Source of the DNA: Candidatus Mcinerneyibacteriota bacterium
Lineage (GTDB): Bacteria; AUK180; JAQVHJ01
DNA: 8,281 bases
Direction: 5' to 3'
Assembly: GCA_030630935.1 (NCBI GenBank)
Contig: DAOVMD010000116.1
Span: 1-8,281, forward strand
A program made the position numbers and the translations under genes. The notes under the pieces are model-generated. The model worked only from the letters and a program-made list of their open reading frames with translations, did not search any database and had not been told where the DNA came from. The stretch's first letter is position 1; every line of letters begins with the position of its first letter. This document shows positions 1 to 8,281 of the stretch, piece by piece.

Positions 1-716
1 AGGTTAACATTAAAAGCATTCTTCGGATTCTTAGTCTTTGAAATTTCTTTCGAGTCTAAATATAAAACTTTTGACCCATCCTGAATTCTAAAAAGGAATG
101 TGACTTTCCTGGAATTAATTGTTGGAATAGCTTCGTAAAAATCCAAACCATTATTTGAAGAAACAAAATAAAGCGGGATAACCTTTTCTGAATTAGAACC
201 GGGATTCAAGATGAGTTCAGATTTTGTTATGTCATCTGCGCGGGTTTGGATTATAAATAAAATTTTATTTTTTGTTACAGGGTTGAAGTATTGTATGGAA
301 GTATCGAAAAACAATGCTTCCTCAATAATTTTATTATCCCCTTTCTTTGCTGGGATCTTTAAATAGTCAAAGTTCCCGACAACCACAACTGAATTCTGAC
401 CGCCAAATCCGTCCGATGCAAATTCATCAGCATTCTTATCAGTAATCCAATCGGAATCGTTAATTACAAATTTATAATGATGCTTCCCGGGCGGGAGCTT
501 CTTTGTGATCTCCCAAATTCCGTCCCTGTCATCGTCAGTCATGGGGTCGGATGATTTATCCCAATTATTAAATGAGCCCGCAACCGAAACTGATTCAACA
601 GGTAAAAATGATTCGTACTTGAACGTGACGTCATATAATCTTTCAGCAGATACAAAGATAGAGCTGAAGATGATCAGTAAAAAAATCACCGGCAATGTTA
701 AATTGTTTTTGTTCAT
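1..716 (-). CDS. Secreted glycogen-binding-domain protein, probable GH13 alpha-amylase/neopullulanase (5' part only)
   Basis: The reading frame is open from ATG at 716 to the left edge of the window (238 codons, no stop), so the C-terminal part is missing. Residues 1-24 form a signal peptide: Lys at position 3, a hydrophobic stretch LPVIFLLIIFSSIFV, and likely cleavage after VSA. Residues about 28-113 look like a CBM48/AMPK-type glycogen-binding module, with VAGSFNNWD, DGIWEI, LPPGKHHYKFVIND and DGFGGQNSV in family order. Residues about 130-225 resemble the Ig-like CBM34 domain that precedes the barrel in neopullulanase and cyclomaltodextrinase (FYEAIPTI, KVTFLFRIQDG). The GH13 barrel and its catalytic residues would lie beyond the edge, so the enzyme call is inference; the domains seen fit an exported enzyme that degrades alpha-glucans. 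The start is supported by AAGGAG at 730-725, eight bases upstream, and by a promoter. It could instead be a non-catalytic starch-binding protein. Confidence 0.78.
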   Translation of the reverse strand, partial: MNKNNLTLPVIFLLIIFSSIFVSAERLYDVTFKYESFLPVESVSVAGSFNNWDKSSDPMTDDDRDGIWEITKKLPPGKHHYKFVINDSDWITDKNADEFASDGFGGQNSVVVVGNFDYLKIPAKKGDNKIIEEALFFDTSIQYFNPVTKNKILFIIQTRADDITKSELILNPGSNSEKVIPLYFVSSNNGLDFYEAIPTINSRKVTFLFRIQDGSKVLYLDSKEISKTKNPKNAFNVN

Positions 717-735
717 CTGAATTTCTCCTTAATCA

Positions 736-802
736 TAGATTTTATTTTATCATACAATCAATACATTGTCAACGAATTTTAACAGAGAGCTAACAAGAAC
801 TT
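736..802 (-). repeat. Promoter-bearing inverted repeat, left copy
   Basis: The reverse complement of this segment matches 2554-2619. The core (736-785 against 2570-2619) agrees at 48 of 50 positions, with differences at 739 and 764. A further 11-base match, AAGTTCTTGTT (802-792 against 2554-2564), lies upstream after a variable 6- or 5-base gap. The repeat covers the -35 box, spacer, -10 box and about 30 bases upstream. Such identity exceeds what two unrelated promoters would share by function alone. Confidence 0.88.
744..772 (-). promoter_or_regulatory. Sigma70-type promoter of the amylase-like gene
   Basis: Read on the minus strand, TTGACA (772-767) and TAAAAT (749-744) are separated by exactly 17 bases. 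The -35 box is a perfect consensus and the -10 box matches 5 of 6. Transcription would start near 737, giving a leader of about 20 bases that holds AAGGAG (730-725) before ATG at 716. The whole promoter lies inside a repeat shared with the proS promoter. Confidence 0.8.
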
Positions 803-949
803 TTTAAATATAAAAAAAAAGAAAAACAAAAATGAAAGGAACTTAACATGGACTTCAAAGAGACTTATAAATAACTAATTAACATTGTTTACATTTGTTT
901 ATGTCATTTGTTGCTTAAGGGTTCTAATGAATGCAAAAAAATATTTCAC

Positions 950-994
950 CGCAGAGGACGCCCCGAAAAACCGGGGAAAACTCCAAACGCAGAG
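950..994. repeat. CGCAGAG direct repeat enclosing a CCCCG/CGGGG hairpin
   Basis: CGCAGAG occurs at 950-956 and again at 988-994. Between them CCCCG (961-965) and CGGGG (972-976) can pair over a six-base loop. The outer words read like a common dispersed intergenic phrase interrupted by a second palindromic word. That reading is inference; the repeats themselves are directly visible. Confidence 0.55.
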
Positions 995-1013
995 AAAAAC
1001 ATAAATCTTTTTA

Positions 1014-1037
1014 ACAGGGATTATCCTGTAGGGATAA
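1014..1037. repeat. Overlapping small palindromes around TCCTGTAGGGA
   Basis: Two alternative hairpins share the same bases. ACAGG (1014-1018) can pair with CCTGT (1025-1029), or TTATCC (1021-1026) with GGATAA (1032-1037). The 11-mer TCCTGTAGGGA at 1024-1034 recurs at 1092-1102. The alternative pairing could be a switch, but nothing around it supports a regulatory role, so a small intergenic repeat is the simpler view. Confidence 0.5.
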
Positions 1038-1046
1038 AGTGATAGT

Positions 1047-1070
1047 AGCCCCGCAATTTATTGCGGGGTT
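1047..1070. repeat. Strong hairpin, 10-bp stem with TTTA loop
   Basis: AGCCCCGCAA (1047-1056) pairs with TTGCGGGGTT (1061-1070) through eight perfect pairs, one G-T wobble and one terminal A-T pair, around the loop TTTA. No T-run follows directly on either strand, so it is a poor intrinsic terminator. It lies between two diverging genes, where no terminator is expected. Confidence 0.65.
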
Positions 1071-1088
1071 AGATTAAAAAAAACAGAA

Positions 1089-1108
1089 CAGTCCTGTAGG
1101 GACGACTG
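1089..1108. repeat. Small hairpin with second TCCTGTAGGGA copy
   Basis: CAGTC (1089-1093) can pair with GACTG (1104-1108); an inner alternative is GTCC (1091-1094) with GGAC (1100-1103). The 11-mer at 1092-1102 is a direct repeat of 1024-1034. A-runs lie on both sides. Confidence 0.5.
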
Positions 1109-1187
1109 AAAAAAAACACCAAATGAACAAAAACAAAAAAAACACACAAGAAATGAGACGTAATGTATTACTTATTTGCGAAAAAAC

Positions 1188-1216
1188 TTGAATTATTTAA
1201 TTTAATATGTTAAAAT
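1188..1216 (+). promoter_or_regulatory. Probable promoter of the CHAP gene
   Basis: TTGAAT (1188-1193) and TAAAAT (1211-1216) are separated by 17 bases. The -10 hexamer and spacing equal those of the proS and amylase-like promoters, but the surrounding bases are different, so this is not another copy of the repeat. Transcription from about 1223 would give a leader of roughly 150 bases before ATG at 1376. The A+T-rich background makes chance matches easier. Confidence 0.55.
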
Positions 1217-1375
1217 ATAAATAGATATTAATGTAGAATTTAAATAAGTTTGGTGTCAAATGATATGATGAAATATACCAGTAGAGCAATAAATATACAA
1301 GAGCACTTCCTTTTAATATTAGTAAATAATATGTTGAGTATTTCGATATTATTTTTTAAAAAGGGATATTTGAAA

Positions 1376-1948
1376 ATGGAAAAGCGATTCATAATAAAAA
1401 AGATTTTAATAATTGTAATAATCTGTTTATTAGTTTTTATTTTACCGATTCTTAATAAGATCTTGATTGGAAAGGAGCTTGAGGTTATTAACGGCGTAGG
1501 CGTATATTATAATGGAATATTTACAAATAAAACCTATGGTAAAAATTTTAGTGAGGAAGGTTATTGTTTTGGCAAGAAATGGCAATGTGTTGAGTTTGTA
1601 AAACGGTATTACTATAAAAAATTGAATCATAAGATGCCAAATGTGTATGGTCATGCAAAAGATTTCTTTGATCTGAATGTAAAGCAAGGCCAACTAAATA
1701 AAGATAGAGGATTGATTCAATATTATAATGGTAAAAATAATAAACCAAAAATTAATGACCTTATTGTTTTTAATGATACTAAATTTGGCCATGTTGCAAT
1801 TGTAATAAGTGTCACTGAAAAGTACATTGAAGTAATCCAACAGAATAGTTTTTTAAAGACCAGAAAGAAATATAAGATTCAGAATAAAAATGGATGTTAT
1901 ACAATAGGTACAAAAAGAAAACCTGTCGGTTGGTTGAGAAAACAATGA
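1376..1948 (+). CDS. Membrane-anchored CHAP-domain amidase/peptidase
   Basis: This is a 190-residue protein. Residues 1-31 are a basic start followed by one hydrophobic segment (ILIIVIICLLVFILPIL), a signal anchor or uncleaved signal, so the rest should lie in the periplasm. The catalytic module spans about 60-188. KWQCVEFVKRYY carries the presumed nucleophile Cys71, FGHVAIVISV carries His139, and VIQQNS carries the likely third residue (Asn157 or Gln155). The Cys motif resembles the WQCVEF stretch of glutathionylspermidine amidases, and the ending GWLR is common in CHAP proteins. Family members cleave peptidoglycan cross-links or gamma-glutamyl/amide bonds; the substrate here is unknown. ATG 1376 is preferred because AAGGGA (1361-1366) precedes it by nine bases and the anchor begins immediately. 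An in-frame TTG at 1250 would add 42 residues without a ribosome site. The gene is richer in A+T than its neighbours (17 G/C of 60 at 1561-1620; 23 of 60 in proS at 3061-3120) and stands alone. Confidence 0.85.
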   Translation: MEKRFIIKKILIIVIICLLVFILPILNKILIGKELEVINGVGVYYNGIFTNKTYGKNFSEEGYCFGKKWQCVEFVKRYYYKKLNHKMPNVYGHAKDFFDLNVKQGQLNKDRGLIQYYNGKNNKPKINDLIVFNDTKFGHVAIVISVTEKYIEVIQQNSFLKTRKKYKIQNKNGCYTIGTKRKPVGWLRKQ

Positions 1949-1979
1949 GGGACAGGTAATGAACCACGTAGGATTCATT
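1921..1979 (+). terminator. Weak stem-loops at the end of the CHAP gene
   Basis: ACCTGTC (1921-1927) is complementary to GACAGGT (1951-1957), bridging the stop codon with a 23-base loop. AATGAA (1958-1963) is complementary to TTCATT (1974-1979). Neither is followed by a T-run, so intrinsic termination is doubtful; the stronger palindrome at 2038-2059 may serve instead. Confidence 0.25.
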
Positions 1980-2037
1980 GTAAACTGTTTACTTGTTTAC
2001 TTACATTTCATACGGGAGGATTAAGTTCATTTGGTCA

Positions 2038-2059
2038 GGGACACGGCATGCCGTGCCCC
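2038..2059. repeat. 22-bp near-perfect palindrome, possible CHAP terminator
   Basis: The segment is centred on GGCATGCC, with CACGGCA (2042-2048) mirrored by TGCCGTG (2049-2055) and flanks GGG/CCC. The only mismatch is A2041 against C2056. TACATCTTTT follows, so it could stop transcription from the CHAP gene about 90 bases upstream. A zero-loop palindrome is also a typical dispersed intergenic repeat or a protein-binding site. Confidence 0.6.
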
Positions 2060-2128
2060 TACATCTTTTGGGATACAATTCTTTGGTTTTCGGATGAAGA
2101 CATAAAAATTTATTATTGTTTTCATACT

Positions 2129-2142
2129 AGCCATAAATGGCT
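2129..2142. repeat. AGCCAT/ATGGCT hairpin
   Basis: AGCCAT (2129-2134) and ATGGCT (2137-2142) form a perfect six-base inverted repeat around AA. It lies 20 bases before the stronger 2162-2181 palindrome, and the two may belong to one composite repeat unit. Confidence 0.5.
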
Positions 2143-2161
2143 GATTGGTTTGCGAATTGTT

Positions 2162-2181
2162 CCTAGGGGTGAACCCCTAGG
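2162..2181. repeat. Perfect 9-bp palindromic arms, CCTAGGGGT/ACCCCTAGG
   Basis: CCTAGGGGT (2162-2170) and ACCCCTAGG (2173-2181) are perfect inverted arms around GA. CTTTTT follows about nine bases after the stem, too far for a classical intrinsic terminator. The two-base loop cannot close as drawn, so an RNA hairpin would open the inner pair. A dispersed palindrome is the better description. Confidence 0.6.
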
Positions 2182-2297
2182 CTATGAATCTTTTTCATAA
2201 GAATCATAAATGATTAAAAAAAAGAAATAGTTATCTTAATTTTTCGTTCGGATTCGTGTTTGTGTTTGAGACCAAGTATTGTTAGCATTTAGTACAG

Positions 2298-2322
2298 TCT
2301 CGATCTGATATCTCGATCTGAT
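2298..2322. repeat. 12-bp tandem repeat TCTCGATCTGAT
   Basis: TCTCGATCTGAT occurs at 2298-2309 and 2311-2322, separated by a single A, giving two units with a 13-base period. No function is apparent. It could be replication slippage or a two-site binding element. Confidence 0.6.
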
Positions 2323-2327
2323 TACTG

Positions 2328-2346
2328 TTGTTTTCGAAGAAAACAA
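2328..2346. repeat. TTGTTTTC/GAAAACAA hairpin
   Basis: Perfect eight-base arms (2328-2335 and 2339-2346) surround the loop GAA. It lies just downstream of the 12-bp tandem repeat. The stem is rich in A and T, with no following T-run. Confidence 0.5.
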
Positions 2347-2475
2347 TGCCCCTACTGAACATTTCAAATGTCCTTCATGTTAAAGAATCCTTAACCAACT
2401 AAAGTTCTAAACCAAAGCTGTGTAATATCTAAAGCAAAATCATTCTTACTTATTCATTGTTCATTCTTCATTTTT

Positions 2476-2499
2476 ATCCCGATGTTAAAAAATCGGGAT
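2476..2499. repeat. ATCCCGAT/ATCGGGAT hairpin
   Basis: Perfect eight-base arms (2476-2483 and 2492-2499) surround an eight-base A-rich loop. On the minus strand the stem is followed by AAAAATGAAGAATG, not a T-run, so it is not an obvious terminator in that direction; on the plus strand CAACTCC follows. Confidence 0.55.
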
Positions 2500-2536
2500 C
2501 AACTCCCTTTGGTCGCAGACTTGCTTAAATGAGCTT

Positions 2537-2550
2537 GCAGCAATAGCTGC
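2537..2550. repeat. GCAGC/GCTGC hairpin abutting the proS promoter repeat
   Basis: GCAGC (2537-2541) and GCTGC (2546-2550) pair around AATA. The hairpin ends three bases before the right copy of the promoter-bearing repeat. The left copy of that repeat has no equivalent, so this hairpin is not part of the shared unit. Confidence 0.45.
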
Positions 2551-2553
2551 GTT

Positions 2554-2619
2554 AAGTTCTTGTTCATCCCTGTTAAAATTCGTTGACAATATATTGATTG
2601 TATGATAAAATAAAACCTA
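2554..2619 (+). repeat. Promoter-bearing inverted repeat, right copy
   Basis: This is the partner of 736-802 in opposite orientation. AAGTTCTTGTT (2554-2564) is followed by a variable five-base gap and then the 50-base core (2570-2619), which matches the left copy at 48 positions. Homology stops before the ribosome site: the proS leader past 2620 is unlike the amylase leader. The repeat therefore carries a promoter but not a translation start. Confidence 0.88.
2583..2611 (+). promoter_or_regulatory. Sigma70-type promoter of proS
   Basis: TTGACA (2583-2588) and TAAAAT (2606-2611) are separated by 17 bases, identical in boxes and spacing to the amylase-like promoter. Transcription would begin near 2618, leaving about 30 bases of leader with AGGAG at 2637-2641, six bases before ATG 2648. 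It may drive the whole proS-ABC cluster. Confidence 0.82.
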
Positions 2620-2647
2620 AGTAATTTTTAATATATAGGAGTTTATA

Positions 2648-4090
2648 ATGGCGCAAAAGATAACCCCGCGAGATAAGGATTATTCCCGTTGGTACACTGA
2701 TATTGTTTTGAATGCAAAGCTTGCGGATTACTCTCCTGTTAAGGGCTGCATGATAATTCGTCCGAATGGTTATGCAATCTGGGAAAAGATGCAGGCAGCT
2801 TTAGATAAGATGTTCAAGGACACCGGGCACGAGAATGCTTATTTCCCAATTATGATCCCGGAAAGTTTTATGAAGAAGGAAGCTGAGCACGTTGAGGGTT
2901 TTGCTCCTGAGTGTGCGATTGTTACGATTGGCGGTGGGAAGACACTTGAAGAACGGTTATATCTTAGACCAACATCAGAAACAATTATCTGGAGTACTTA
3001 TGCAAAATGGATTCAGTCATATCGTGACTTGCCAATTCTCATTAATCAATGGGCAAACATCATCCGTTGGGAGATGCGTACAAGATTATTTTTAAGAACG
3101 ACAGAATTTTTATGGCAGGAGGGTCATACTGCTCATTCCAATGCAGCCGAAGCCGAAGAGGAAACGATGCGGATGCTGGATGTATATGAAACATTTGCAG
3201 AAGAATTTATTGCCTTACCGGTAATTAAAGGTAAGAAGACTGAGGCAGAAAAGTTTGCCGGAGCAATTTATACGGTATGTATAGAAGCGATGATGCAGGA
3301 TAAGAAAGCCCTTCAATCCGGGACGAGTCATTATCTTGGCCAGAACTTTGCAAAAGCTTTTGATGTTAATTTTTTAAACAGCAAAGGTGAGCGTGAATTT
3401 GCATATGCCAGCAGTTGGGGAGTAAGTACGAGGTTAATAGGTGCGTTGATCATGGCGCATAGCGATGACCGGGGTCTTGTCTTACCACCGAAACTTGCAG
3501 CTACAAAAGTTGTGATTGTTCCTATTTGGAAAAGTGATGAGGAAAAAGCGACCGTTTTAAAATATTGTGAAGCAATTACTTTAAGTTTAAAAGATAAAGT
3601 AATTCCATTCAAACTTGATGACAGGGATCAGTTTAAACCAGGTTATAAATTTTCTGATTGGGAGATGCAGGGAATTCCTGTCCGGATTGAAGTCGGACCA
3701 AAGGATATTGCAAAGAATGCAGTTGTCCTTTTCCGTCGTGATACAATGAAGAAGGAATTTGATATCCCTGTTGAATCGGTAGGGGAGAAGGTATCTGAAT
3801 TACTTGATCTGATTCAGAAAAATTTATTTGACCGTGCACTTAAGTTCAGGAAGGAAAATACATTTGAAGTTGATGATTATGAAAAGTTCAAAGAGACAGT
3901 TGATGGTCCCGGTGGTTTCATCTTATCACACTGGTGCGGGTCACCGGAATGTGAAACGAAAATAAAGAAGGATACAAAAGCTACGATCAGGTGTATTCCG
4001 TTTGATGAAGAGTTACGCGGCAGTAAAGGCAAGTGCCTGGTCTGTGATAAGGAATCGGAAGGAAGAGTAGTGTTTTCAAAAGCATATTAA
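2648..4090 (+). CDS. proS: Prolyl-tRNA synthetase, type 3 (eukaryote/archaeal-like)
   Basis: This enzyme charges tRNA-Pro with proline using ATP in the cytoplasm. The 480-residue length is normal for the short type 3 form, which lacks the editing insertion of the bacterial type. Class II motifs are visible: motif 1 around residues 54-75 ([12 protein letters not shown]), the RPTSE loop at 107-111, motif 2 at 140-163 (RWEMRTR to QEGHTAH), [10 protein letters not shown] at 225-234, and motif 3 at 258-281 with Arg262. The anticodon-binding domain spans about 286-390 ([21 protein letters not shown]). The C-terminal zinc-type domain has Cys430, Cys435, Cys463 and Cys466 (plus Cys449), and the chain ends in Tyr480, the conserved terminal tyrosine of this type. 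AGGAG six bases upstream and the family N-terminus fix the start. The gene appears complete and intact. Confidence 0.97.
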
Positions 4091-4095
4091 AAATT

Positions 4096-4117
4096 GAGAT
4101 ATGCTGCGGCATATTTC
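4096..4117 (+). other. Stem-loop between proS and the ABC ATPase gene
   Basis: GAGATATGC (4096-4104) pairs with GCATATTTC (4109-4117) around a TGCG loop: nine pairs including one G-T wobble. It begins six bases after the proS stop and ends 15 bases before ATG 4133. No T-run follows, so it is at most a weak terminator. It could be an RNA-processing or stability element that adjusts ABC expression relative to proS. Confidence 0.5.
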
Positions 4118-4132
4118 TACAATGATATAATA

Positions 4133-5074
4133 ATGAAAATAATTGAACTGAAAAACATTTCAAAACATTTTGGATCTGATTTAATCCTTGATAATATTTC
4201 TTTCGGAATATTTGAAGGAGACATTGTCGGTTTCCTTGGTCCAAATGGAGCAGGGAAGAGTACAACAATGAAGATATTAACAGGTTTATTGTTCCCTGAT
4301 TCAGGTGATTATTTATATAGGAAAGAAAGTGCGTTAAGTTCACCAGGATTGATTAAAAATAAGATTGGTTACCTCCCGGAAGTCCCGCCTATCTACAATT
4401 ATTTACGAGTTATTGAGAACCTTAATTTTTTTCAAGATATAAAAGGTGTTCGTTCTGGTCGGAAAAAGGAGCTAAATAGAATAGTTGATGTTTGCGGTCT
4501 GGGAGAAGTAAAGAATAAGTTAGCAGGTCATCTTTCGAAAGGTTTCCGTCAGCGATTAGGTCTTGCAATTGGGTTATTAGGTGACCCTGATGTCCTTATT
4601 TTGGATGAACCCACGGTTGGCCTTGACCCAATCCAGATTAAGGAGACCAGGAAATTAATTAAACATCTCGGTAAAGAAAAGACGGTGGTTTTAAGCAGTC
4701 ATATTCTCAGTGAAGTTTCGGAGGTCTGTAACCGGGTGATAATAATTAATAAAGGAAAGATATTAACCGAAGAACTAACCGAAAACCTAGTGAAGAAGAT
4801 CCATGTTAATTCTTACAATGTAGAAACTATCGCAGAAGAGAAAGATATAATAAATGAATTGGAAAAGATAGAAGGGGTTTCAAAGGTTGCAGTCGTTGAC
4901 AAAAAGACAAGCGGAGAGATTTCTTTAATAATTGAATCAAACTCCGACTTGGATTTAAGGAAGGACATTGTTAACCTTTTCTCCAGGAACAACTGGACAC
5001 TTCTTTCCCTTTCTAAAACTGAACCGACACTTGAGAATATTTTCATGGATCATATCAAGGATAAAGAAGAATGA
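4133..5074 (+). CDS. GldA-like ABC transporter ATPase
   Basis: This is a 313-residue cytoplasmic ATPase expected to energise the adjacent membrane protein. Walker A is GPNGAGKST (36-44), the signature is LSKGFRQR (134-141), Walker B is VLILDEP (154-160), and the H-loop histidine is His190 in LSSHIL. The Q-loop position reads GYLPEVPPIY (79-88), with Glu in place of Gln, as is usual in the GldA/ABC-2 branch. A C-terminal extension of about 90 residues ends in EPTLENIFMDHI, also typical of that branch. ATG 4133 is chosen because the ABC fold begins directly with MKIIELKNIS. An in-frame TTG at 4094 would add 13 unlikely residues. No ribosome site is visible before either start, unlike the neighbouring genes. 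The stop overlaps the next start by four bases (ATGA, 5071-5074). The specific substrate is unknown; a gliding role is not implied by the family alone. Confidence 0.93.
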   Translation: MKIIELKNISKHFGSDLILDNISFGIFEGDIVGFLGPNGAGKSTTMKILTGLLFPDSGDYLYRKESALSSPGLIKNKIGYLPEVPPIYNYLRVIENLNFFQDIKGVRSGRKKELNRIVDVCGLGEVKNKLAGHLSKGFRQRLGLAIGLLGDPDVLILDEPTVGLDPIQIKETRKLIKHLGKEKTVVLSSHILSEVSEVCNRVIIINKGKILTEELTENLVKKIHVNSYNVETIAEEKDIINELEKIEGVSKVAVVDKKTSGEISLIIESNSDLDLRKDIVNLFSRNNWTLLSLSKTEPTLENIFMDHIKDKEE

Positions 5075-7194
5075 AAACGCTCGCATTGATAAAGAAGGAT
5101 CTTAAACTATTATTTTTTACACCACTTGGATATATTGTACTTGTGTTGTTTACTTTAATCTCAGGTTTAATTTTTTATACGTTGCTCTCGTCATATATTG
5201 CAAAGTTTCTCCAGATGGCAATGATCGTTCCGGATTATAAGATGAATGTAGATAATTATATTATCACACCAATGTTTTCTAATTATGCAATTCTCTTTCT
5301 AATCATGATCCCGGTGATCGCAATTCAATTTTATCCAAATGAAAAGAAATCAGGAACCTTTGATCTGCTGCATATTTCCAAGTTGAGCTTAGGTCAAATT
5401 GTTATGGGTAAATTTATCGCAACAGTTATTTTTTATATTGTAATGCTTTTAATAACCTTTATATATCCTATTATTATAGCACGCAACGGCAATCCTGATT
5501 TTGGTCCGATCTTCACAGGCTACCTTGGTTTACTCTTGATGGGGATGTCTTATATTGCATTAGGACTCTTCATATCGTCATTCTTGAAGAGTAAAGTATC
5601 TGCAGTAATCATGACATTCGGGGTTATCCTTCTGTTTTGGTTTGTTGGCTGGGTCGGGAGTTCAGCACATAGCGTATTTTTGAAAACTGTTTTCCAATCC
5701 TTCTCTTTACTGGAACATTATTATAATTTTGGGAAAGGTCTCTTAGATACAAGGGATTTATCCTATTATATTTCTTTTATTTCATTTGTTTTATTTTTAA
5801 ATTATAGAATGTTACGACTTTATCCGTATTTAAATAGTTTCAGAGGTTTTACAAAATCATTCAAGTTAAATGAATCTATGTTTATAATTTTAATTTTTGG
5901 AATTGTAATTATCCTGAATGTTTTTTCCTTCCGGCATTACCATGTATTTGACCTTACCCGCGGTAATAGATTATCGTTATCCAGTCAGTCTTTAAAAGTG
6001 ATAGAGAAAATTGAGACACCTATGGAGATCATGATGTTTTTCAAGGAGGATACTCCGGGTTACTTTGAAGTTAAAGATTTAGTAGAGGAATTTCTTCGGC
6101 TAAATCCACTTATTTCCTTAAAGATCATTGATCCTGACCGTGAGCTTGAAAAGGCCAGGGAGTATGGAATTAAGGTTTATGGAACTACTCTATTTGAGTA
6201 CCAGGATAAAATTGAGAGGACTCAAGTAACTACTGAGATGGGATTAATTAACGTGATCTTCAGACTAATTTTAACTGAGAAATTTAATATATATATCATA
6301 TCAGGTAATGGTGAGCATTCAATCTGTGACTTAACGACGCAGGGGCTGAGTGAATTTATTAAGAAATTCAAGAATGAAGGATATGAATTTGAAAGGCTTA
6401 ATCTTAATTCAGTAGAAGAGATTCCCGGAGATGCTGCGTGTATAATCTTTTCAGGAACACAAAAAGAGCTTAATGCTCATTCGAAGAAGGTAATTAAGAA
6501 TTATTTTAAAACTGGGGGGAGTATATTTTTATGTATAGAGCCACCTCCCTGTACATCTTTTGATTTCTTCCTGAATGAATATGGAATTTTATCTAATAAA
6601 GACATTGTGATCGATAGGAAAAATAGTCTTTATGGAATATCCCCGATGATGCCGATAATCATTAATTTTAGTAATCATGTTATTGGAGGAAATATTTCAG
6701 ATGGAATAATTCTTCCGATTACCTCATCATTTTCGTTCATGGAATTCATAAAAGAGAAGGATAAAGTGGACTTTCACTTATATTGGCTTGCAAAATCATC
6801 CCAGGATTCTTATGGAGAGACTAACTTGAAAGTACTTCCTTGTTCACAAGATGATAAAGATATTAAAGGACCTTTAATCATTTCAATTGCCCTTGAAAAG
6901 TATTATGAAAATAATGAAAAATTTTCCAAGGCAGTAATCATAGGTGATTCAGATTTTATGACAAATGGTTTCTTAAAACTTTCAGAGAACATTGATTTTA
7001 TCGGAAACTCCTTGAATTGGCTTACTCATCGTAATACCCTCATATATATTAGACCGAAAGAGATTGAAACGAGTATTATGAGGTTGAATCCGGTTCAGGT
7101 ATCATACATCTTTTTATTTGTAGTTGTTTTAATTCCGATAATTCCACTCTTACTTGGGATACTCGTTTTTATTTTTAGGAGACGGTGGAGATGA
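5071..7194 (+). CDS. Fused GldF-like ABC-2 permease and GldG-like auxiliary protein
   Basis: This 707-residue protein joins two parts that are separate genes in many Bacteroidota. Residues 1-250 form a six-helix ABC-2 permease, with helices near 20-40, 69-87, 113-137, 148-170, 177-197 and 231-248; YPNEKKSGTFDLL (88-100) is typical of the family. After a linker and a seventh helix (269-288) comes a large, probably periplasmic GldG/ABC_transp_aux domain (about 290-675). It contains DLTRGNRLSLSSQSLKVI, LKIIDPDRE, SGNGEHSI, FKTGGSIFLCIEPP and GDSDFMTNGFL. A last helix (678-702) and the basic tail RRRWR close the chain. Translation is probably coupled to the ATPase through the ATGA overlap at 5071 and to the next gene through ATGA at 7191-7194. 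Substrate and function are unknown; related systems occur in many bacteria that do not glide. Confidence 0.9.
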   Translation: MKTLALIKKDLKLLFFTPLGYIVLVLFTLISGLIFYTLLSSYIAKFLQMAMIVPDYKMNVDNYIITPMFSNYAILFLIMIPVIAIQFYPNEKKSGTFDLLHISKLSLGQIVMGKFIATVIFYIVMLLITFIYPIIIARNGNPDFGPIFTGYLGLLLMGMSYIALGLFISSFLKSKVSAVIMTFGVILLFWFVGWVGSSAHSVFLKTVFQSFSLLEHYYNFGKGLLDTRDLSYYISFISFVLFLNYRMLRLYPYLNSFRGFTKSFKLNESMFIILIFGIVIILNVFSFRHYHVFDLTRGNRLSLSSQSLKVIEKIETPMEIMMFFKEDTPGYFEVKDLVEEFLRLNPLISLKIIDPDRELEKAREYGIKVYGTTLFEYQDKIERTQVTTEMGLINVIFRLILTEKFNIYIISGNGEHSICDLTTQGLSEFIKKFKNEGYEFERLNLNSVEEIPGDAACIIFSGTQKELNAHSKKVIKNYFKTGGSIFLCIEPPPCTSFDFFLNEYGILSNKDIVIDRKNSLYGISPMMPIIINFSNHVIGGNISDGIILPITSSFSFMEFIKEKDKVDFHLYWLAKSSQDSYGETNLKVLPCSQDDKDIKGPLIISIALEKYYENNEKFSKAVIIGDSDFMTNGFLKLSENIDFIGNSLNWLTHRNTLIYIRPKEIETSIMRLNPVQVSYIFLFVVVLIPIIPLLLGILVFIFRRRWR

Positions 7195-8281
7195 TGAAAA
7201 AGAAAATATTAATTTCCGGGATTATTTTTATTTGTTTAGCAATTCTCCTTTTTATAGATGTTAAAATTAATGAACCATCTGAAAAAATGAAGGATAATTG
7301 GTTAATCAAAATTAATTGGGAAGAATTATCTTCAATTAAAATCTCAACAACCCTCGGGAACTTAGAATTTTATAAGATACAGAAAGAATGGTTTGTAGTA
7401 AAAGATAAGAGGTATCCCGCAGATAAATTTAAGATTGAAGCATTAATAAATAGTTTATCTGTATTACGGAAAAATAAGATTTTATTAAAAGAAGAGTATG
7501 AAGATAAATCGCGATTTAGCCTTGATAACCCACCGGTTATACTTGAATTGAAAACGAAACAGGAAACAGTAAAATTATTTTTCGGAACCAGAACTTCGGT
7601 GAAGGAAGAGGTTTATACAATGTTTCCCGATGACGATAATATTTACCTGACCAATTCTTATATATTGATCAGGTTATTTTGGGGGTTAACACATTACAGG
7701 GATAAATTTATTTTGAAATATAATCCGGATGAGGTGGTAAATTTTCAACTTGCATACTCCGGTTCGGGAATAGATATTGAAGTTATAAAGGAGACCGGAT
7801 CATGGAAGATTATTAAACCTGTAAAAACTCCGATTTCTGCTGATATTGAATATGTAAAGCTGATGGTTCTTGGCGGGGTTAGTCTTGAAGGCGTGAAAGT
7901 GTTTGATGATATGGAATCTTTAAATAATCCAGATGCATTTAAGAATACCAGGTTTTCTTATACTGTAATTGATAAGAATAATAAAAAGTATAAATTAGAT
8001 GTTGGTTCAGTGAACATTGAACATGAAGCTTATTACGTGAAAGGAACAGAAGACTTTCCTATTTATCTTGTTCCTATTGAAATTATGAATAGAATTATTA
8101 TCTCTAAATATCGCCTTGCTGATAAATGGATTGTGAATCCTGATGTTAATAAGATTCCAAAGAATATAGTTTCAATTTCCTTTATAAATAAAAGGGGTAC
8201 AACTTCTTTAGTCCGGAAATCAAAAGGCAGATGGTTCTTAAATGATAACGAGGTAACAACTGATAAGGGTGTCCAGCTTAA
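7191..8281 (+). CDS. DUF4340 domain protein, membrane-anchored (3' end missing)
   Basis: The frame is open from 7191 to the window end (363 codons, no stop). A short basic N-terminus and one hydrophobic segment (about 6-23, ILISGIIFICLAILLFID) indicate a periplasmic protein tethered to the inner membrane. The rest is beta-rich and shows a recurring pattern of a beta hairpin followed by a Trp and a basic or hydrophobic strand: IKISTTLGNLEFYKIQKEWFV (about 49-69), FQLAYSGSGIDIEVIKETGSWKII (about 185-208) and SISFINKRGTTSLVRKSKGRWFL (about 328-350). This matches the repeated module of DUF4340, a family usually encoded just after GldG-type genes. ATG 7191 is preferred over the adjacent ATG 7194 because AGGAG (7177-7181) is nine bases upstream and the start overlaps the previous stop. 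It is presumably a partner of the fused transporter; no biochemical role is established from sequence. Confidence 0.88.
   Translation, partial: MMKKKILISGIIFICLAILLFIDVKINEPSEKMKDNWLIKINWEELSSIKISTTLGNLEFYKIQKEWFVVKDKRYPADKFKIEALINSLSVLRKNKILLKEEYEDKSRFSLDNPPVILELKTKQETVKLFFGTRTSVKEEVYTMFPDDDNIYLTNSYILIRLFWGLTHYRDKFILKYNPDEVVNFQLAYSGSGIDIEVIKETGSWKIIKPVKTPISADIEYVKLMVLGGVSLEGVKVFDDMESLNNPDAFKNTRFSYTVIDKNNKKYKLDVGSVNIEHEAYYVKGTEDFPIYLVPIEIMNRIIISKYRLADKWIVNPDVNKIPKNIVSISFINKRGTTSLVRKSKGRWFLNDNEVTTDKGVQL

Follow-up and report, generated by a model that had tools for sequence, protein, structure and literature searches.

Short homologous sequences that bear a promoter and lie before unrelated genes of one genome, with no obvious transposase, have been described as putative mobile promoters or as promoter propagation (Matus-Garcia et al. 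2012, doi 10.1093/nar/gks787; van Passel et al. 2014; as cited in PMC8049555 and PMC5906472). As these citing papers describe them, such sequences resemble the locus reported here in all of these respects; our case differs in having three copies only, a core of 33-66 bp, no copies in relatives and a local inverted pair that is joined to a dispersed module. Regulatory switching, or horizontal regulatory transfer (PMC9944727), is similar in that a conserved gene is kept while its promoter differs from the orthologous one, whereas the sequence found here is like that of a promoter elsewhere in its own genome and not like one from another strain. Miniature inverted-repeat elements (MITEs) and insertion sequences with outward promoters carry terminal inverted repeats, and none is common to our copies, so that a MITE of this kind was rejected. 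Finally, the housekeeping sigma-70 promoters with an extended -10 element share TTGACA, the 17-nt spacer, TG and TAnnAT with our copies; the difference is that here the spacer and flanks are shared as well, which the class does not demand.

The window, the whole stretch of DNA analysed, comprises 8,281 nt (contig DAOVMD010000116.1) and belongs to a 3.16-Mb draft genome of a Candidatus Mcinerneyibacteriota bacterium (471 contigs, 80% complete). The original prediction of two near-identical, inverted and outward-facing 50-bp cores was reproduced on recomputation, with 48 of 50 positions identical between 736-785 (minus strand) and 2570-2619 (plus strand). A repeat finder returned two inverted arms, each 53 nt long and 94% identical to the other (copies A and B, Table 1), and BLAST a match of about 66 bp at 91% (736-802 and 2554-2619); the exact words common to both are short, about 25 nt. 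TTGACA-N17-TAAAAT is present in each copy, as had been stated, together with a TG ahead of the -10 box, and the two copies are the top two promoter-like sites of the window, one per strand, agreeing with the consensus at 11 of 12 positions. They point outward, and ATG codons preceded by good ribosome sites follow after 27 and about 36 nt, a placement that fits the promoter role predicted for them ahead of two unrelated genes, amylase-like and proS. Downstream of proS, at 4094-8279, the window encodes an ABC ATPase, a GldG-like fused ABC permease/auxiliary protein and a DUF4340 protein; the sister genus, too, has the ATPase and the beginning of the permease behind proS. The cores had also been said to bracket a CHAP island. 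Promoters do stand at both ends of this intergenic region, but since they merely occupy the two ends of a repeat-filled stretch, the bracketing is probably incidental. An on/off inversion switch was rejected because both arms contain a complete promoter and a flipped island would still drive both genes, and no recombinase is found among the window genes examined.

Table 1. Positions of the promoter copies, adjoining genes and repeat modules (window coordinates unless a contig is named)
Feature	Position	Strand	Details
Copy A, predicted promoter of CBM48/alpha-amylase-like gene	736..788	-	-35 767-772, -10 744-749, extended -10 TG
Copy B, predicted promoter of proS and closely spaced ABC/GldG-like genes downstream	2567..2619	+	-35 2583-2588, -10 2606-2611
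Copy C	C303:4648-4676		glycosyltransferase-like gene about 47 nt downstream, then sugar nucleotidyltransferase
Gene behind copy A, AMPK1_CBM/CBM48 and alpha-amylase N-terminal domains	3..716	-	cut by contig end
Gene behind copy B, prolyl-tRNA synthetase (proS)	2648..4090	+	
Intergenic region: CHAP-domain ORF, rest a mosaic of dispersed repeats also on many other contigs	786..2566		87 BLAST matches in genome
Module AGTTCTYGTTAGTTCYCTGTTAAA, 1 mismatch	778..801	-	5 bp upstream of copy A -35
Module, diverged copy with 1-nt deletion	2555..2577	+	5 bp upstream of copy B -35

Searching the genome with the 29-bp core TTGACAATRTATTGATTGTATGATAAAAT at up to 3 mismatches yielded exactly three sites, namely A, B and a copy C on contig C303, and hence more than a pair. 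Copy C equals copy A from 1 base before the -35 box through 4 bases after the -10 box, a tract of 33 bp; the Pfam match that marks the gene behind it as a glycosyltransferase is slightly below the curated cut-off. Near copy C, at a distance of about 240 bp, a group II intron domain (RF00029; L001 1766-1856, minus strand) occupies the end of contig C303. Genome searches with either half of the core gave no further convincing member, the first half returning scattered matches with 2-3 mismatches (19 vs 10 in a reversed control), and a large promoter family was rejected on the grounds that whole-genome searches found only three copies. Beyond this genome, the core was absent at up to 3 mismatches from 59 other genomes (relatives) and, as an exact match, from viral contigs. 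A plasmid search gave no matches and those to Bacillus phages were weak (E 3e-3 or worse), which led us to reject a phage or plasmid origin. GTDB r220 held one exact match, in a Clostridia MAG, where the site is itself an apparent promoter; given the size of the collection (by rough estimate, not computed), this is likely a chance match. The search proposed originally, which was to distinguish a family of many copies from a local pair, thus gave copies that are indeed dispersed before genes, but three of them, with none in the relatives. Compared with mobile promoters, a homologous promoter precedes non-homologous genes (amylase-like, proS and glycosyltransferase) and the similarity goes beyond consensus need, while spread between genomes was not seen in the relatives, viral contigs or, apart from the plausible chance match, GTDB r220. 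We claim membership in this group only as promoter reuse within one genome, with promoter activity predicted from position.

The pattern TTGACA-N14-TGnTAnnAT occurs at 129 sites in the genome and at none for a reversed-pattern control, and 54 of 58 class promoters examined (spacers of 17 or 18) are followed within 200 nt by an ORF of 60 aa or more, the distance being 15-50 nt in most cases; judged by this count and placement, it is the ordinary strong promoter of the genome. The extended -10 element is strikingly common among the classical TTGACA-N17-TGnTAnnAT promoters of this genome. Copies A, B and C all conform to this sigma-70 extended -10 pattern upstream of a start codon. At the 14 free spacer bases, A and C agree in 14/14, A and B in 13/14 and B and C in 13/14. 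In 99 other promoters of the same class these bases are diverse, the best unrelated pair reaching 12/14, as in shuffled columns, and no second family with a shared spacer was found among them. For a chance model, the base frequencies per column were taken from 43 further promoters of the genome. This model expects 1e-8 to 5e-6 pairs like A and B (one mismatch in 33 nt and 12 upstream bases all identical) given 129 to 3000 promoters, and 1e-4 to 0.05 pairs like A and C over 33 nt. The original prediction had proposed that the identity exceeds functional need, and had named a spacer common to most strong promoters as the observation that would speak against a special origin. Because spacers are diverse and the chance expectation lies far below one, the proposal survived this test; the sigma consensus as a full explanation was rejected, since it has no power to explain an identity in spacers that differ among the 99 other promoters.

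The claimed extension of the pair to about 66 bp holds as an alignment but belongs to a separate element: the upstream AAGTTCTTGTT match (AAGTTCTTGTT...CTGTTAAA) is part of a dispersed 24-bp module, AGTTCTYGTTAGTTCYCTGTTAAA, and not of the core. This module has 45 copies in the genome at up to 3 mismatches (none in the reversed control) and forms part of the repeat mosaic that occupies this 1.8-kb intergenic region as well as many others. The intergenic repeats of the window are dispersed and hairpin-rich, and similar-looking sequence occurs upstream of the glycosyltransferase gene of the sister genus. Different sequences follow the other module copies; ATTCG and then TTGACA follow in A and B only, and the junction of module, ATTCG and core is confined to these two among 46 promoters examined. 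This common junction indicates that the two copies either carried the module end along when copied or go back to one source. The distance between them is 1.87 kb, a proximity with P = 0.0036 if three sites are placed at random.

We consider it probable that a sigma-70-type extended -10 promoter segment was copied within this lineage to at least three places, each before an unrelated gene. A and B would probably go back to one local inverted duplication or gene-conversion event, which would also have taken in the end of the dispersed repeat module adjoining the -35 box, and copy C would represent a shorter copied tract of 33 bp. Recombination between dispersed repeats may have helped the copying. 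Each copy would then serve as a strong promoter of the usual type, with transcription predicted to begin about 7 nt past TAAAAT and with its own 5' UTR and ribosome site. We infer copying as the source of the identity, as well as any direction it took, from the three copies, their place before genes, their promoter class, the junction shared by A and B and the unrelated spacers at two loci of the sister genus; the material examined showed neither an empty site nor an intermediate strain, nor a mobilising enzyme. Among the origins listed originally (dispersed repeat, duplication, gene conversion or shared regulator), segment copying gains support from three copies, two of them so close together, whereas a many-copy family promoter does not. 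A broader idea, in which recombination at dispersed intergenic repeat modules carries entire promoters from gene to gene and module-joined promoter sequence is homogenised or redistributed genome-wide, appears rather improbable.

In the sister genus, the proS protein is 84% identical and its gene has the promoter TTGACAATTATCATAGAATATGATAAACT at the same place, as the glycosyltransferase orthologue has TTGACTTTTTTTCTAATCTGTGTTAAAAT; these match the core at 22/33 and 23/33, no closer than they match other promoters of the genome. This comparison covers proS and the glycosyltransferase, the amylase-like orthologue there being cut by a contig end. Either these two loci would have acquired the core in the present lineage or spacers would drift to background between genera, and under both options the exact identity among the three copies points to a recent common origin or to lineage-specific constraint. 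proS was rejected as a demonstrable source of the core, since its sister-genus promoter resembles the core no more than it resembles other promoters. The suggestion that promoter sharing links starch use to translation and transporter expression is unsupported, because the site type is the common, housekeeping-like promoter of the genome and the sister-genus proS lacks this spacer.

One observation counts against copying: the tract that copy C shares perfectly nearly coincides with the RNA-polymerase core, from the -35 box to 4 nt past the -10 box. Randomly copied tracts need not match this core, whereas selection on the whole core would produce such a match. The spacer might hold an operator, for example the half-dyad ACAAT-N6-ATTGT over the -35 box and spacer, through which a transcription factor co-regulates the three genes, so that selection keeps or made the identity. 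The identity peaks exactly over the core, the sole spacer change between A and B lies within the central N6 of the dyad, and A and C agree at 18/27 positions of their upstream flanks, in the top 0.5% of promoter pairs, which would fit old copies with a constrained core. However, the proS and glycosyltransferase promoters of the sister genus lack the sequence, the scattered first-half matches are little above the reversed control, a 5-bp dyad is weak in AT-rich DNA and operators rarely conserve every spacer base; we therefore regard an operator as unlikely. As to the age of the proposed copying, the data fit both a recent event and an old one followed by constraint.

That chance or the sigma-factor consensus simply makes strong promoters of this genome alike is very unlikely: the class is common and AT-rich, and an exact match exists in the Clostridia MAG, but the diverse spacers, the low expectation and the 3-mismatch search, with no sites beyond the three, all argue otherwise. 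It is also highly improbable that the core belongs to a mobile element, autonomous or MITE-like, that carries a promoter and occurs in many genomes. Three dispersed copies in a genome whose intergenic DNA is rich in dispersed repeats would be in keeping with it, but the copies lack common terminal inverted repeats, stop at three, are missing from relatives, viral contigs and plasmids, and have no transposase among the window genes. The cut amylase gene (window 1-465) overlaps contig C81 (L132 1-465) end to end at 94.4% identity, and C81 represents either another strain's version of the gene or a paralogue that is nearly identical; the draft genome may therefore mix strains, a caveat that applies to copy C. 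An assembly or binning artefact of such a mixed draft is very improbable as well, because, despite the 471 contigs and a window end that dovetails with C81 at only this identity, A differs from B, different complete start codons lie downstream, A and B have just short exact words in common, and other contigs of this genome match the flanking sequence of copy C at 94%.

Overall, the shared promoter sequence is a genuine feature that exceeds chance; it is small, belongs to a known kind and adds one minor new case of promoter reuse, not a new type of element. It provides a clean small case, from a poorly sampled lineage, in which the promoter of a gene has apparently been replaced by a copy of that of another gene, and the two orthologous loci of the sister genus allow comparison. 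Moreover, the analysis shows that this genome uses classical TTGACA / TGnTATAAT promoters.
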